This document shows, piece by piece, positions 4,436-10,256 of a DNA stretch of 10,256 bases (position 1 is the first letter of the stretch; every line of letters starts with the position of its first letter). The notes below the pieces were generated by a model, which searched no databases, was not told where the DNA came from, and was given only the letters and a program-made list of their open reading frames with translations. The translations under genes and the position numbers were made by a program. Source of the stretch: Sulfurovum sp. (lineage in GTDB: Bacteria > Campylobacterota > Campylobacteria > Campylobacterales > Sulfurovaceae); the NCBI GenBank assembly GCA_027046415.1, contig JALTYW010000196.1, positions 1 to 10,256 of the forward strand, in the 5' to 3' direction.

Positions 4436-4918
4436 ATGCCTATCGATACAAATGAGATCCTCTACCGTCTCCAGCAGGCACTTGGTCTCTCACTCGATGA
4501 GATGCTTAAAGCCTATGAACTTGCAGAATATCCCATGGAGCAGGAACACCTTGAGGCACTGCTCAAACGCAGACAGGACAAAGGGTTTCACCTCTGCAGC
4601 TATGAGGAACTTGGGGTTTTTCTTGACGGACTGATCATACTCAAACGCGGGCCAAGTCCCAAAAAGGCGAATGAAGATGATGCCGTACCGCTAACAAACA
4701 ACCTCATTTTAAAAAAACTTCGGGTAGCATTGGAATTGAAAGAGCCCGAAACAGAACTTATCTTCAACCTTGCAGATGTGATGCTCAGCAAACAGGAGCT
4801 CAAGTCACTCTTTAGAAAAGAGGAGCACAAGAACTTCAAGCCCTGTTCCAATGCGCTGCTGATGGTATTCATAGAGGGTTTGGAAGAGTACTGTTACGTC
4901 CCTGAAAGTGACGCATAA
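4436..4918 (+). CDS. DUF1456 (YehS-like) two-repeat helical protein
   Basis: Cytosolic protein of 160 residues with the two tandem copies typical of DUF1456, the family of E. coli YehS. Copy one spans about 6-72 and copy two about 87-153. Each begins with an N-(E/L)-I-L-x-x-L-x-x-A-L pattern (NEILYRLQQAL, then NLILKKLRVAL), continues with an acidic helix, then a (R/K)-x-x-x-x-K-x-F-x-x-C-S element (DKGFHLCS, NFKPCS) and a hydrophobic F-hydrophobic-(D/E)-G-L helix (FLDGLI, FIEGLE). No enzymatic motif is visible and the function of the family is unknown. No signal peptide. The ribosome binding site (GGAG, 4421-4424) is inside the end of the upstream gene and eleven bases away, rather distant, so translation may depend on coupling. 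Confidence 0.88.
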   Translation: MPIDTNEILYRLQQALGLSLDEMLKAYELAEYPMEQEHLEALLKRRQDKGFHLCSYEELGVFLDGLIILKRGPSPKKANEDDAVPLTNNLILKKLRVALELKEPETELIFNLADVMLSKQELKSLFRKEEHKNFKPCSNALLMVFIEGLEEYCYVPESDA

Positions 4919-4920
4919 AA

Positions 4921-4924
4921 GGAG
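4921..4924 (+). promoter_or_regulatory. Ribosome binding site fixing the phosphoribosyltransferase start
   Basis: GGAG is six bases from the ATG at 4931 but adjoins the in-frame TTG at 4925 and lies only three bases from the GTG at 4928. The spacing therefore selects 4931, giving a 149-residue protein. Confidence 0.7.
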
Positions 4925-4930
4925 TTGGTG

Positions 4931-5380
4931 ATGGCACACTATTATGACTACAATACATTTGTAAAAGATGTAAAAACACTGGTTAAAAAAACTTCCGATT
5001 TCAAACCGGATGCGCTGCTTGGCATTGCAAGAGGCGGGCTGACACTGGCACATGCCTTTGCGCAGGCAACGGATAACCGGAACCTTTTCAGTATCAACTC
5101 CATTCTCTACGACGGAGAAGTCAAACGTTCTCATCCAAAACTGATGAACCTTCCCGAGCTTGACGGAGCCAAAAAGGTGCTGATCCTTGATGATATCGTC
5201 GATTCCGGTCAGACACTTGTTGCTGTGCTTCGTGTCCTGCAGGAGCGTTACCCGGATACCCAATTCAAAAGTGCGACACTCTACTGCAAGAAAAACACAG
5301 TGATCGAACCCGATTACTGGCTGCACGAAGCGACAGAGTGGATCGACTTCTTCTGGGAAAAAGATTTTCTGGAAGAGTAG
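4931..5380 (+). CDS. Type I phosphoribosyltransferase, Gpt (xanthine-guanine) like
   Basis: Cytosolic enzyme of 149 residues with the type I phosphoribosyltransferase fold. It transfers ribose-5-phosphate from PRPP to a base, most likely a purine in salvage. The 13-residue PRPP-binding signature is complete: VLILDDIVDSGQT at 83-95, with the paired acidic residues Asp87-Asp88 and the DSGQT phosphate loop. IARGGL (32-37) supplies the pyrophosphate loop. The end (TEWIDFFWEKDF, 135-146) resembles the C-terminal W-I-x-x-x-W base-binding region of E. coli Gpt, and the length is close to Gpt (152). The family is therefore secure, but preference for xanthine, guanine or hypoxanthine cannot be read from sequence. 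Its stop codon directly abuts the mltG start with no bases between, indicating tight co-translation. Confidence 0.87.
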   Translation: MAHYYDYNTFVKDVKTLVKKTSDFKPDALLGIARGGLTLAHAFAQATDNRNLFSINSILYDGEVKRSHPKLMNLPELDGAKKVLILDDIVDSGQTLVAVLRVLQERYPDTQFKSATLYCKKNTVIEPDYWLHEATEWIDFFWEKDFLEE

Positions 5381-6367
5381 ATGAGGAGGAAGCTGTCCAG
5401 AAACTATCGCTACTTCGTATATTTTCTGGAACTGCTTATCGCCCTCTCTGCCCTGCTTCTTTTCTACAACTTTTTCATCCCCATCGGCAAAGAGGGCAAA
5501 AGCATCTACTTTCCAGACTGTAACCGTACTGCCGTACTCGATACGCTCCGTAGGTACGGCTATAACATTACCGATTTTGACACGCTGTTACTCTCTGAAA
5601 ACAACCTTCCCAAAAAGGGATGGTACACCATCACCCATACCCAAAGCGGCAGATACGCCTTTTTTCATCATCTTGCCGACCAACGTGCCAAAACCATGTG
5701 GGTAAAGGTCTTCGCCGGAGAGACCACAGAGGAGATGCTCTCCCGTCTGGCGCACGATACCAAACGTGACCTTCCAAAACTCAAACAATACTACAGCCAA
5801 GAACAGCATCTGTTGGAGGGTGATATCTTTGCCGGGAAATACCTAATCGCCAGAGATGCTGACGCACAAGCAGTGATAGACTACCTCTTTCTCCACTCAC
5901 AGCGAAAGCTTGAAAGCTTCAAGAGACAGTTTTACTGCTATGGGCTGGATGATGGGATGCTAAAGAGCCTTGTCACCATCGCTTCCATCATCCAAAAAGA
6001 GACCAACGATGTCAAAGAGATGCCGATGATCGCATCGGTCATCTACAACCGTCTGCACAAAAAGATGAAACTGCAGATGGACAGCACCCTCAACTACGGC
6101 AGCTACTCCCACTGCATCGTCACCCCGGAGCGGATCAAATGCGATACAAGCCTTTACAACACCTACAAATACAAAGGTCTTCCCCCTGCACCGCTTGGTA
6201 CAGTCTCCATGGAGGCACTCAGAGCGGCAATGTTTCCGGCAAAAAACGATTATCTCTTCTTCATGCTCACCCCAACAGGCAAACACTCCTTCAGCAAGAC
6301 CTACAAAGAACACCTTGCTGCGTTGAAGTCGTTTCGGGAGTATCAGAAGGAGAAAGTAAAAGAATAA
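5381..6367 (+). CDS. mltG: Endolytic murein transglycosylase MltG
   Basis: Membrane-anchored YceG/MltG-family enzyme of 328 residues (E. coli 340). It cuts nascent glycan strands in the periplasm and is thought to act as a chain terminator for peptidoglycan synthesis. One transmembrane segment lies at about 11-33 after a basic N-terminus. A LysM-like region follows (about 105-160, including ETTEEMLSRLA and LLEGDIFAGKYLI). The catalytic domain contains ASIIQKETND with the catalytic glutamate expected at 207, then ASVIYNRLHKKMKLQMDSTL (218-237) and the KGLPPAPLG block (265-273). Two cysteines, 245 and 254, flank a short loop and could pair in the periplasm. GGAAGAG at 5371-5377 inside the previous gene serves as ribosome binding site. 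It is the last gene of the plus-strand run and ends three bases from the convergent propeller gene, with no terminator visible. Confidence 0.95.
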   Translation: MRRKLSRNYRYFVYFLELLIALSALLLFYNFFIPIGKEGKSIYFPDCNRTAVLDTLRRYGYNITDFDTLLLSENNLPKKGWYTITHTQSGRYAFFHHLADQRAKTMWVKVFAGETTEEMLSRLAHDTKRDLPKLKQYYSQEQHLLEGDIFAGKYLIARDADAQAVIDYLFLHSQRKLESFKRQFYCYGLDDGMLKSLVTIASIIQKETNDVKEMPMIASVIYNRLHKKMKLQMDSTLNYGSYSHCIVTPERIKCDTSLYNTYKYKGLPPAPLGTVSMEALRAAMFPAKNDYLFFMLTPTGKHSFSKTYKEHLAALKSFREYQKEKVKE

Positions 6368-6370
6368 TAC

Positions 6371-9097
6371 CTACTTGATCTGCCAAACCTTCACTTCTCT
6401 TGCCATCAAGACAAACTTATCGGAGTCATCTAAAAACATCCCGCCGACAATTTTATCACCGTTAATGATATCGTACTGCTCAGTTTGATCCAACTTCCAC
6501 AAAAAAGCACCCTGTTCACCTGTAACCAGCATATACTTATGATCTTTGCTGATCGTAACATACTTCGCTCCCATATAGACATCGGCATCATAGGTTTTTA
6601 CGACTTTCCCGGTTTTTATATCCATGAAGTTAACTTTACGATTTTGAGAGGCAATAATCAAAATATTTTGATTCTCTTTGTCAAATGCCAATGCCCCTAC
6701 TTTGCGTATACCGCTATCTTTTAGACTGTCCACATAAGATATAGTAACATCAGAGCCAAACAGTGATCTGTTAATTTTCCACCTTTCTATGTCCCCTTTA
6801 TTACTGCCTATATAAAGCATTTTCCCATCAGGAGATACGGTTAGTGCACTTATGCTTGTAAAGTTATATTTTTGTGATACAGGTATAAACTTTGGTTTGA
6901 GTGTGGCTGTTATCTCCCCACTTTCAATATCTATAAAATGGATTACTTTGTCTATCGTCACAAGCGTTTTATTATCAGGCAAAAACAGTTTAACTCCACC
7001 AATCTTCTTTTTGATCGTCTTAATGATCCTGCTTTGCTGCATATCCCAAATATAGATCGTCGATCCATACCTTCCAATAGCCATATATCTGCCATCAGGT
7101 GACAGTGCTGCATAAAAACTGTTCTCTAATTTAGCCGGCAGTTTCTGTACTACTGTCTGAAGCTTGGCATCATAGAGTTTTGCACTGTTACCGCTTATGG
7201 CAAAGTTGCTCTTTCCTTGTATATAGGCGGCACTATACGGATTGTAGTGCAGTACATCAATCGTATTGACAGCATCCACGCGTCCATAGGCACTGTCGAG
7301 TGACGTTTGTCTATACTTACGTTTTACAATCATCGACTCACGTACGAAACTAATGGTATTTTTCTCCTGCTTCTTGCATACCCTCTGTGCCTGCTTATAG
7401 ATGTAATGGTTAAGCTTTAGTTTGTCATTGTTAACCATGATATAGTCGATACCTTCATAGGTTTTGTTATTGAAAAAGATGAAATCATTTTTATTGAGTT
7501 GGATAAAGTCTGTACAAAGCTTACCTTTTGGAATACCCATATAGGTCAGTTTGATCCCGCCTTGAGGCATACCCGATATCAACACACGCTCACCCATTGG
7601 TGCCTTGATGGTTCCGTTTGCGTCTATCCATTTTTTTGCAACAATACCCTTAGCTACAGCACGTTGGTTATTGAGATATGGTGTCGGTCTGTTTTCAAAC
7701 ACCTTTGCATAATATTTGAGGATTTCATCTTTTTGGCTGATCGCATTTCTCATATCATATGCAGTAAAACGTGATGCAGGTTTCATGGAATGCTGCTTAT
7801 GCATAGATTTTCCAGGCATGAGAAGTGTCTGGTTACAATCAAAAAAGAGCTTTAGTTCAGGGGTTGCGCCCTCTTCATCCATCTTCATCTTAATGGTCAT
7901 TTTCCACCACATCTGTGCATTGAAGATATTACTGTAAAAAGTCTCTTTGATCCCCTCGATACGAAAATCTTTAACACGCGACATGATAAGAGCAAATGCT
8001 TCTTTCTCGTTGCCATGCACAAGACACTCTTCCAAACGCAACAACTTCAAAGCGGCCAAATTCGGTGTAGGTGCCGATCGTTTTTGTAGTTGGCTTTTCA
8101 TCAAAGATAGATACTGCTCTGCATACTTTTTCTTTTGGGGATCTTTCTCGTACCGCTTTAAAAATGCTGAAAGATTGGCAAGTTTTACGTGCAGTTTTTT
8201 TTCTTCTTTGGTTTTCTTTTTTTTCTCAACCTTGGGTACAAATGGATCTAGGTGCATTTTGGTAATATTGTTTTCACAGTAAGACTCTATCTCTTTTGGC
8301 AAAAATTCATGTTTTAGCCCATAATATTGGATGGAAACAATCCTATGTACCAGTTTTCTCTTGAAGTTATGGTAGAACTCTCCGTTTACATAGAGGTTCT
8401 CCTGCTTTTGACACGCTTCAAGATAGAGCATCTCCTGTTTCATTTTTTTGCGCTTTTCAGGCTTGTCATAGTTGCGCAGCATCTCTTCTCTCAAGTATGC
8501 TTCACGCAGGAGCATATCTTTTTGCAAAGGTGTCACTTTCATATGCTCTATTTGATCAAATATATTTTTGGGAACCATATTTGGCGGGTATCTTTTCAAT
8601 GTCGTCAGATTATAGTCCGGCATATCGGCATTTTTGGGAAGCAGCCTGTATTTTGGCGGATCAAGCAGAATGATCTTGCGCAGTATGGCATCATACTTTC
8701 TCATTCTCGCAGAAGATTCCGAAGCTCCATCCACATTGATGCTCCCCTCTACCCTGCGCAATTTTTTCAATCGTCTGCGTGCCTCTTCAGTTTGGACAAG
8801 TGTCTCTTCCAAAATATCATCAAACCTGTAGTAGAGTTTACACTCACTTTCAATATCACTAACAATATGCCACAAACGCCAGTAATCAAGTTCCGTTTTA
8901 ACAAGGGCTTCTCGTTTGTCCACATGGTCTATACGGTACTGCAATGCCAACAGGTACGCTGTAAGCAATGTTTTATCCTCTTTGGAAAAACAGGAAAAGG
9001 AGTCAATGAGCTGTTTGCTCTCGACAGGGAGTGTTTTGGCAAATTCAGCGGCAAAGAGGAATTGTACGAGAAGCAGAAAGGGCAGAAGTTTTTTCAT
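6371..9097 (-). CDS. Large exported protein with PilS-like pilin head region and C-terminal WD40-like propeller
   Basis: A 908-residue protein with a signal peptide (1-16, cleavage expected near LFA|AEF), so periplasmic or surface-located. I do not recognise the whole protein. Residues 17-440 are mostly charged helices with no family I can name, including a lysine-rich linker at 289-301. Residues about 444-590 resemble the globular part of type IVb PilS-like pilins: YLNNQRAVAKGIV (474-486), NGTIKAPMGERVLI (494-507), GIPKGKLC (521-528) and VCKKQEKNTISFV (573-585), with Cys528 and Cys574 placed like the pilin disulphide. Residues about 620-908 form seven WD40-like blades, for example SPDGRYMAIG and IYIWD, SPDGKMLYIG, and the final VKVWQIK. 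AAGG at 9107-9110 lies nine bases before the ATG. It follows the 60-residue gene by 16 bases and is more A+T-rich than its surroundings. Function unknown; a structural or adhesive envelope role is inference. Confidence 0.8.
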   Translation of the reverse strand: MKKLLPFLLLVQFLFAAEFAKTLPVESKQLIDSFSCFSKEDKTLLTAYLLALQYRIDHVDKREALVKTELDYWRLWHIVSDIESECKLYYRFDDILEETLVQTEEARRRLKKLRRVEGSINVDGASESSARMRKYDAILRKIILLDPPKYRLLPKNADMPDYNLTTLKRYPPNMVPKNIFDQIEHMKVTPLQKDMLLREAYLREEMLRNYDKPEKRKKMKQEMLYLEACQKQENLYVNGEFYHNFKRKLVHRIVSIQYYGLKHEFLPKEIESYCENNITKMHLDPFVPKVEKKKKTKEEKKLHVKLANLSAFLKRYEKDPQKKKYAEQYLSLMKSQLQKRSAPTPNLAALKLLRLEECLVHGNEKEAFALIMSRVKDFRIEGIKETFYSNIFNAQMWWKMTIKMKMDEEGATPELKLFFDCNQTLLMPGKSMHKQHSMKPASRFTAYDMRNAISQKDEILKYYAKVFENRPTPYLNNQRAVAKGIVAKKWIDANGTIKAPMGERVLISGMPQGGIKLTYMGIPKGKLCTDFIQLNKNDFIFFNNKTYEGIDYIMVNNDKLKLNHYIYKQAQRVCKKQEKNTISFVRESMIVKRKYRQTSLDSAYGRVDAVNTIDVLHYNPYSAAYIQGKSNFAISGNSAKLYDAKLQTVVQKLPAKLENSFYAALSPDGRYMAIGRYGSTIYIWDMQQSRIIKTIKKKIGGVKLFLPDNKTLVTIDKVIHFIDIESGEITATLKPKFIPVSQKYNFTSISALTVSPDGKMLYIGSNKGDIERWKINRSLFGSDVTISYVDSLKDSGIRKVGALAFDKENQNILIIASQNRKVNFMDIKTGKVVKTYDADVYMGAKYVTISKDHKYMLVTGEQGAFLWKLDQTEQYDIINGDKIVGGMFLDDSDKFVLMAREVKVWQIK
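6374..7240 (-). other. Seven-bladed WD40-like beta-propeller region
   Basis: Protein residues about 620-908 hold seven repeats of some 35-45 residues. Each has a hydrophobic strand, a D/N-G or similar turn, an I-G or T-G strand and a closing W/F-D-I-type strand. Closing strands read KLYDAKL, YIWDMQQ, HFIDIES, ERWKINR, NFMDIKT, FLWKLDQ and KVWQIK. Seven blades would make one closed propeller, usually a binding platform for proteins. Confidence 0.75.
7328..7768 (-). other. Type IVb (PilS-like) pilin head domain, putative
   Basis: Protein residues about 444-590. The order of elements matches the soluble part of PilS-type pilins from memory of that family: an amphipathic helix, a Y-x-L-N-N...A...G-I-V segment, an I-x-x-P-x-G-x-x-V-x-I strand pair, a V/I-P...C turn and a terminal C...N-T-I-S/T-F strand. 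The hydrophobic N-terminal assembly helix and prepilin cleavage site of a true pilin are absent. This is pattern recognition without a profile search. Confidence 0.5.
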
Positions 9098-9113
9098 AAA
9101 AAGAAACCTTTTA

Positions 9114-9296
9114 TCATAATTGAAATACTTTTTTCATAACCTGTATCAGTCGGGAAAAAGCTGAACCAACGTTTTTATTCTGTTCCTTTTCCTTTCTGTC
9201 ATCCAACTTATGCAGCGTAGACGTTACCGTCTCCAACTGCCTCGAAAGGGTCTCTTTTGCCCGTTGAAGATGTTTGGGTTTAAAATCACTCCGCAT
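9114..9296 (-). CDS. 60-residue basic helical small protein, translationally coupled
   Basis: I do not recognise this protein. It is a 60-residue, strongly charged and probably all-helical chain without signal peptide or cysteine. Leucines and valine at 10, 17, 21, 24, 28 and 31 are spaced like a coiled coil. Residues 44-60 (GSAFSRLIQVMKKVFQL) look like a basic amphipathic helix that could touch a membrane or pack on a partner. Reasons to think it is real: its ATG lies inside the end of the upstream OmpA-like gene (11-base overlap), a good GAAGG (9303-9307) sits six bases before it, and it fills the space between two co-directional genes, ending 16 bases before the next start. It probably works with the two proteins beside it, as a small partner or chaperone of the coiled-coil protein; that is inference. 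Confidence 0.65.
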   Translation of the reverse strand: MRSDFKPKHLQRAKETLSRQLETVTSTLHKLDDRKEKEQNKNVGSAFSRLIQVMKKVFQL

Positions 9297-10256
9297 CGAG
9301 CACCTTCTCTATCTCATGCATCGCATCTTCGTTTCTGAGCCTGAACTTGATCTCAATGCGTCTTGAAGCCTCTTTGTCTTCTACGCCGTTAACAAGTACA
9401 GGGTCAAGATAGGCACGTCCGGAAGCGACCAGCAGTGGTTGGAGGTTGTACTTTTTGGCGATGTCAAGCGTCAGCAGGTAGTGCATGACCGCATAGGCGC
9501 GCTTCTGGGAGAGGTCGAGGTTGTAGAGATAGCCGCCGTCACTGTCGGTATGGCCCTCAATGATGATCTTGTCTAAGTAAGGTTTGATGGCAGGGTTGGT
9601 CACCAGTGTACCGATGTACTCTTCAAAGGCACGTTTGAGCTCACCCTTTGCACTCTCTTTAAGCACTGCACTTCCTTTGTCAAACAGGACATTGGATGCC
9701 AGTTTGAGTGAGCCGCTTTTCTTGTCTATGCGTACTTTCTCCCCAAGTGCCTCTTTGAGTGCGGCGATAACCTTGAGTCTGATGCCCGTTAACGCTTTGA
9801 TCTTCGCCTTTTGCTGCTGAAGCTTGGCAATAAGCGTATCGTACTTTGTCTGCTTCTCATCGAGTGCATTGAGCAGCTGCAGCATCTTTGCATCGTTGGC
9901 TTTGATGGTTGCGTCACGCTCAGTCAGCTTGTTGGAGAGCACTACGACCTTTCCCTCATATGCTTTCAGTTGTTTACGCGTATCTGCCAATGTACTGTTG
10001 GTATCATTTAGCAGATTCTGTACCAGCACGATCTTCTTGCTCAGTACATCTTTTTGGGTATTTGCCTGAGCGAGCATACGGTTTAGCTTGCGTATCTCAT
10101 CCTCTTTGAGTTTGAGGGTCTGCATCTTTTCCTGCAGCTGATTCTGTGTTGCATCGAGGCGTGCTTTGTTCTCGTTCAGGTCTCTGTGCAGCGCTTCGAG
10201 GATGGACTCTTTGTTTTTGAGTGTTTGAGAGAGTGCGGTGAGCCTGTCCTCTTTGT
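9286..10256 (-). CDS. OmpA/MotB-type peptidoglycan-binding protein with long coiled coil (5' end outside window)
   Basis: The reading frame is open to the right edge, so the N-terminus is missing; 323 residues are visible. The visible part begins with a long coiled coil of heptad-like Leu/Lys/Glu/Gln sequence from 10254 to about 9770. The stretch upstream of the Met codon at 10123-10125 is equally coiled-coil and has no stop, so that Met is not the true start. A C-terminal OmpA/MotB domain covers 9331-9708: strand VLFDKGSAVL, then IIIEGHTDSDGG (9535-9570), NLDLSQKRAYAVMHYLL with the conserved N...LS..RA pattern, ASGRAY, and ASRRIEIKF. This domain binds diaminopimelate in peptidoglycan through its Asp and Arg. 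Related proteins have an N-terminal transmembrane helix and often pair with a MotA/TolQ/ExbB-like channel gene just upstream; whether that holds here cannot be seen. First of three co-directional genes. Confidence 0.85.
   Translation of the reverse strand, partial: KEDRLTALSQTLKNKESILEALHRDLNENKARLDATQNQLQEKMQTLKLKEDEIRKLNRMLAQANTQKDVLSKKIVLVQNLLNDTNSTLADTRKQLKAYEGKVVVLSNKLTERDATIKANDAKMLQLLNALDEKQTKYDTLIAKLQQQKAKIKALTGIRLKVIAALKEALGEKVRIDKKSGSLKLASNVLFDKGSAVLKESAKGELKRAFEEYIGTLVTNPAIKPYLDKIIIEGHTDSDGGYLYNLDLSQKRAYAVMHYLLTLDIAKKYNLQPLLVASGRAYLDPVLVNGVEDKEASRRIEIKFRLRNEDAMHEIEKVLDAE
9303..9307 (-). promoter_or_regulatory. Ribosome binding site of the 60-residue gene, inside the OmpA-like gene
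   Basis: Read on the minus strand this is GAAGG in the context AGAGAAGGTG, six bases before the ATG at 9296. It lies within the last codons of the upstream gene and supports both the reality of the small gene and its coupling to upstream translation. Confidence 0.6.

Follow-up and report, generated by a model that had tools for sequence, protein, structure and literature searches.

A predicted type IVb pilin head without its filament helix, carried inside a putatively exported protein of Campylobacterota

In passages of PMC10191384 and PMC8179133, pilins are defined by a class III leader and a hydrophobic helix. Modular pilins, as presented in parts of PMC8179133 (PilB and PilC of Streptococcus sanguinis, CofB) and PMC12607857 (the predicted CpaL of Caulobacter), join a pilin module to a larger functional module within a single chain; the pilin comes first in the fusions known to PMC8179133, and PilB, with its class III leader, is expected to polymerise via its pilin module according to a passage of the same paper. 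The 908-amino-acid protein considered here, encoded in the window (the whole 10,256-nucleotide stretch analysed, contig JALTYW010000196.1 of the Sulfurovum sp. assembly GCA_027046415.1), shares this combination but differs from these N-terminal arrangements in that the predicted pilin head is internal, the conserved order being helical domain, pilin head and propeller. It resembles the PilC/PilY1 tip proteins, in the terms of the relevant passages of PMC8179133 and PMC10191384, in being large and modular with a C-terminal beta-propeller; PilY1, however, is not a pilin and has a propeller family of its own (IPR008707), whereas here the propeller is WD40-like and shares its chain with a pilin head. 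The split pilins of Geobacter, in the account that part of PMC10191384 gives, likewise place a pilin head in a chain that lacks the stick helix, but that head and its stick are the two proteins of a major pilin, whereas the present head is a single module of a 908-amino-acid protein. No account of a pilin head serving as an internal module without its helix was found in the literature searches made. It is just probable that this head, deprived of the polymerising helix, is a disulphide-locked interaction module in a likely exported, non-filament binding scaffold.

The pilin-type head and the missing helix

The features of the gene and its protein are as follows.

6371..9097, minus strand: open reading frame (ORF) of 908 amino acids, with signal peptide, helical domain, pilin head and WD40 propeller (ORF list, relatives)
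9047..9097, minus strand: residues 1-17, hydrophobic N-terminus taken as a Sec signal peptide (sequence, hydrophobicity)
7823..9046, minus strand: residues 18-425, all-helical domain with six conserved cysteines and no clear PDB match (AlphaFold2)
7757..7822, minus strand: residues 426-447, variable linker, mean identity 19% (family comparison)
7328..7756, minus strand: residues 448-590, type IVb pilin head (predicted fold, structure comparison, hhalign)
7700..7753, minus strand: residues 449-466, first helix of the head (predicted fold, structure comparison)
7514..7516, minus strand: Cys528, in the register of the first PilS head cysteine (hhalign, conservation)
7376..7378, minus strand: Cys574, in the register of the second PilS head cysteine (hhalign, conservation)
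7208..7327, minus strand: residues 591-630, variable linker, mean identity 30% (family comparison)
6374..7207, minus strand: residues 631-908, WD40-type beta-propeller (domain-profile scans)

An earlier note on this DNA had proposed a pilin-like head at 7328-7768, which corresponds to residues 444-590, from the motifs YLNNQRAVAKGIV, NGTIKAPMGERVLI, GIPKGKLC and VCKKQEKNTISFV and from two cysteines at the positions of the pilin disulphide. The motifs do occur in that order in the translation, and the cysteines fall in register with those of PilS, Cys528 being conserved in all 59 family sequences and Cys574 in 58, the exception (P0056) ending before that position. For residues 448-590 the predicted structure is a pilin head of type IVb (the PilS/TcpA type), and the comparison with PilS and TcpA that the note had suggested bears out its reading: the predicted head resembles PilS, CofA and TcpA far more than unrelated folds, with PilS at the top of the structure-match list. 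The protein is like the PilS-type type IVb pilins (PF08805; PilS of IncI plasmids, 3fhu; CofA and TcpA by fold) in its predicted alpha-beta head and order of elements, and also in the cysteine pair and the last strand motif.

Profile-profile comparison also supports homology of the head to PilS. The hhalign alignment pairs both cysteines, includes the last strand and scores 34.2, whereas the best of 99 column-shuffled decoys reaches 20.1 and the reversed profile 14.6; among 17 slices of the protein, the four spanning the head core reached 30.1-33.7 and the other 13, some of which touch the edges of the head, 8.5-17.6. Since decoys, reversed profile and other slices score far lower, the resemblance goes beyond chance. 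The search with PF08805, by which the note had also wished its reading to be judged, gave weak matches in 3 of 29 family members (best expect value (E) 0.013, under the curated cut-off) and none for the window protein's own sequence, the one match examined in detail scoring 14.9 bits against a cut-off of 22 bits and a range of 69-134 bits for four real PilS. That PF08805 never reaches its cut-off, and that PF16800 (IseA) matches three relatives (best E 0.0039), would suit a pilin-like fold acquired by convergence, or membership of another family such as IseA, with the match to PilS fortuitous. This is held to be very improbable: the PF16800 match examined in detail (E 0.077) covers residues 6-96 of 151, whereas PilS tops the structure list and aligns through both cysteines and the last strand, with decoys far lower.

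The head differs from PilS, apart from remaining under the PF08805 cut-off, in lying between two other domains rather than at the N-terminus and in lacking the hydrophobic alpha1-N. It starts at the part aligned from PilS residue 32 onward, and its first helix (449-466) is read, on the predicted model, as alpha1-C without a preceding alpha1-N. In all 59 sequences the most hydrophobic 19 residues before or across this helix average no more than 0.37 on the Kyte-Doolittle scale, versus 2.19-3.01 for a 19-residue stretch within the first 80 residues of seven out of seven real PilS pilins, so that the absence of the helix, as first noted from the sequence, holds throughout the family, and with it the departure from the type IV pilin layout (an internal head with no hydrophobic stretch ahead of it). 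Because a class III leader and a hydrophobic helix define pilins, the protein does not count as a pilin, nor as a modular pilin.

Domain conservation, relatives and pilus genes

Among 53 full-length relatives, mean identity to the window protein reaches 55% for the helical domain and 54% for the pilin head, against 38% for the propeller and 19% and 30% for the two linkers; given this difference from the linkers, the head is a discrete, strongly conserved unit, placed between helical domain and propeller much as the earlier note had proposed in calling it an internal module. Of its eight cysteines the helical domain has six and the head two, and each one recurs in between 49 and all 54 of the full-length sequences. 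The N-terminus is hydrophobic (best 19-residue stretch 1.62, Kyte-Doolittle), and residues 1-17 read as a putative Sec signal peptide. The helical domain (408 residues) was modelled by AlphaFold2 with a predicted local distance difference test score of 88.8 and a predicted template-modelling score of 0.69; it is met only in this family, and no PDB match stands out for it in structure comparison. Many WD40 models match residues 636-876, WD40-type families leading the best 25 listed, and PF00400 reaches 31.1 bits on the propeller scanned alone, above its cut-off of 27 bits. Ankyrin repeats are found within the chain of four relatives (P0014, P0049, P0051 and P0053). Some members (P0037, P0038, and those at 6972-9842 of L015 and 6895-9765 of L016, both minus strand) are extended at the N-terminus, and a segment resembling CFEAYRAEKISKQ lies near the start of the extension.

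The protein search scored 7991 candidates sharing most words with the query; the best 120 of 144 hits are headed by 58 relatives, of which 53 align along 94% or more of the protein and five are shorter, and the other 62, spanning 9 to 33% of it, are read from their extent as propeller-only matches. Ten of the 58 relatives among the matches listed are named after an organism (Campylobacterota, Campylobacterales, Sulfurimonas or Sulfurovum), P0036 and P0037 for instance after Sulfurimonas sp. HSL1-2 and HSL1-6, and the gene is also present on contigs of Sulfurimonas, Arcobacter and Sulfurovum metagenome-assembled genomes (four loci). The family is rare: of 397 genomes examined in the phylum (its own genome counted) three have a long match, and among 398 of the order it is the same three.

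The main alternative, modelled by analogy on PilY1 and the Geobacter split pilins, is that the protein sits as a cap or decoration at the end of a type IV pilus or of a type II secretion pseudopilus, the head docking either to minor pilins or to a stick protein made as a separate chain and the propeller presenting a binding surface as PilY1 does. Split stick and head pilins and PilY1 tip proteins do exist, as passages of PMC10191384 and PMC8179133 attest, and GspF/PilC-family genes are present in all seven carrier genomes examined and a prepilin peptidase in five. GspF, however, is found in 26 of 26 genomes of the genus, nine of them found without the 908-amino-acid protein, so that its presence in carriers is uninformative. 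None of the seven carriers exceeds the PF08805 cut-off (three give weak matches, best E 0.056), while the identical search was positive in three of three plasmids, and no pilus gene was recognised among the neighbours in the seven loci, where not every ORF was scanned. The tip, cap or adhesin role guessed at in the earlier note therefore gains no support from linkage to any recognised pilus gene, and the alternative is considered unlikely. In one carrier, a weak PF08805 match (G400:C110:170-319, minus strand, E 0.12) shares its contig with a GspF gene and may be a piece of an ordinary pilin.

The locus and a possible insertion site

The genes bordering the 908-amino-acid gene in the window are these.

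9114..9296, minus strand: adjoining ORF of 60 amino acids, its start matched in five same-genus loci without the 908-amino-acid gene
9286..10254, minus strand: MotB/ZorB-like protein of the OmpA family, truncated at the contig end, flanking the site on the left (profile scans)
5381..6367, plus strand: MltG (YceG), convergent, right side of the site (profile scans)

The gene sits between the MotB-like gene with its trailing small ORF and the convergent MltG. Both flanking genes were sought in 25 same-genus genomes; in five they are adjacent, and all five loci were fetched, the remaining genomes having them on separate contigs, at a distance, or not both found. According to ORF coordinates, the stop-to-stop distance between the flanking genes is 121 to 165 bases in the five loci versus 2,918 in the window; the start of the small ORF is matched there between the MotB-like gene and MltG, and the 908-amino-acid gene is missing. 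Three of the five genomes (G219, G225 and G531) hold no long match to the protein anywhere, the other two being outside that search. Because the gene is so rare, its gain at this place is the simplest reading, loss in the five genomes being conceivable as well.

The protein could instead belong functionally to the adjoining MotAB/ZorAB-like pair, as its periplasmic effector, in that its gene follows the MotB/ZorB-like gene and the small ORF on the same strand and a MotA/ZorA-like gene lies on a contig that appears to continue the window. This is thought quite improbable, as the MotB/ZorB-like gene and the start of the small ORF stand next to MltG without the 908-amino-acid gene in all five same-genus loci, and no clear match to the small ORF turned up at the other six loci with the 908-amino-acid gene (best E 0.078), of which L011 is truncated 326 bases ahead of that gene. 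The small ORF also matches no family, and the MotB-like gene is matched in 21 of 25 same-genus genomes. The MotA/MotB-like pair itself extends over 9286-10254 of the window (minus strand) and 297-1412 of L039 (minus strand), the contig apparently continuing it; the best NCBIfam matches of the MotA-like protein are Zorya ZorA models and that of a MotB-like relative in L034 is ZorB1, all far under their cut-offs.

Neighbouring genes contain ankyrin repeats in L013, L014, L015 and L016, and none were recognised near the gene in L011, L012 or the window, where not every ORF was scanned. In L014 a fusion of major facilitator superfamily transporter, acyltransferase and AMP (adenosine monophosphate) ligase adjoins the gene (6463-9918), and the cut ORF beside the gene in L013 (1-3069) resembles it at the C-terminal end. 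The gene in L012, from an Arcobacter metagenome-assembled genome, is flanked by what we take to be flagellar genes and a prophage stretch (4450-9304, 13229-22707).

Proposed role and significance

As the helix around which pili are built is missing, the head is likely to be a pilus component that now serves in binding instead of filament formation. In the binding scaffold that this suggests, Sec would export the protein by way of the putative signal peptide, disulphides would lock the head (Cys528-Cys574) and the helical domain in the periplasm or outside, and the protein would stay soluble in the absence of a filament helix. Nothing in the adjoining chain could insert into a filament core, and for that reason the head would work as a single subunit. 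The constant core of helical domain and head may dock to one partner, and the faster-changing WD40 propeller, extended by ankyrin repeats in some relatives, may bind another. It is regarded as probable, if not firmly so, that a type IVb pilin head has here been released from making filaments and adopted as a monomeric module for binding, internal to an exported scaffold of helical domain, pilin head and propeller (and ankyrin repeats), and that the family, whose named members so far all come from Campylobacterota, is linked to no known pilus.

Since the usual definition of a pilin rests on an N-terminal leader and helix, heads that lack both escape any survey that searches by leader, such as the InterPro-based one of modular pilins described in a passage of PMC8179133. 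A strongly conserved head without the filament helix would show that the pilin head is useful by itself, and the family offers a clean system in which to ask what pilin heads bind.
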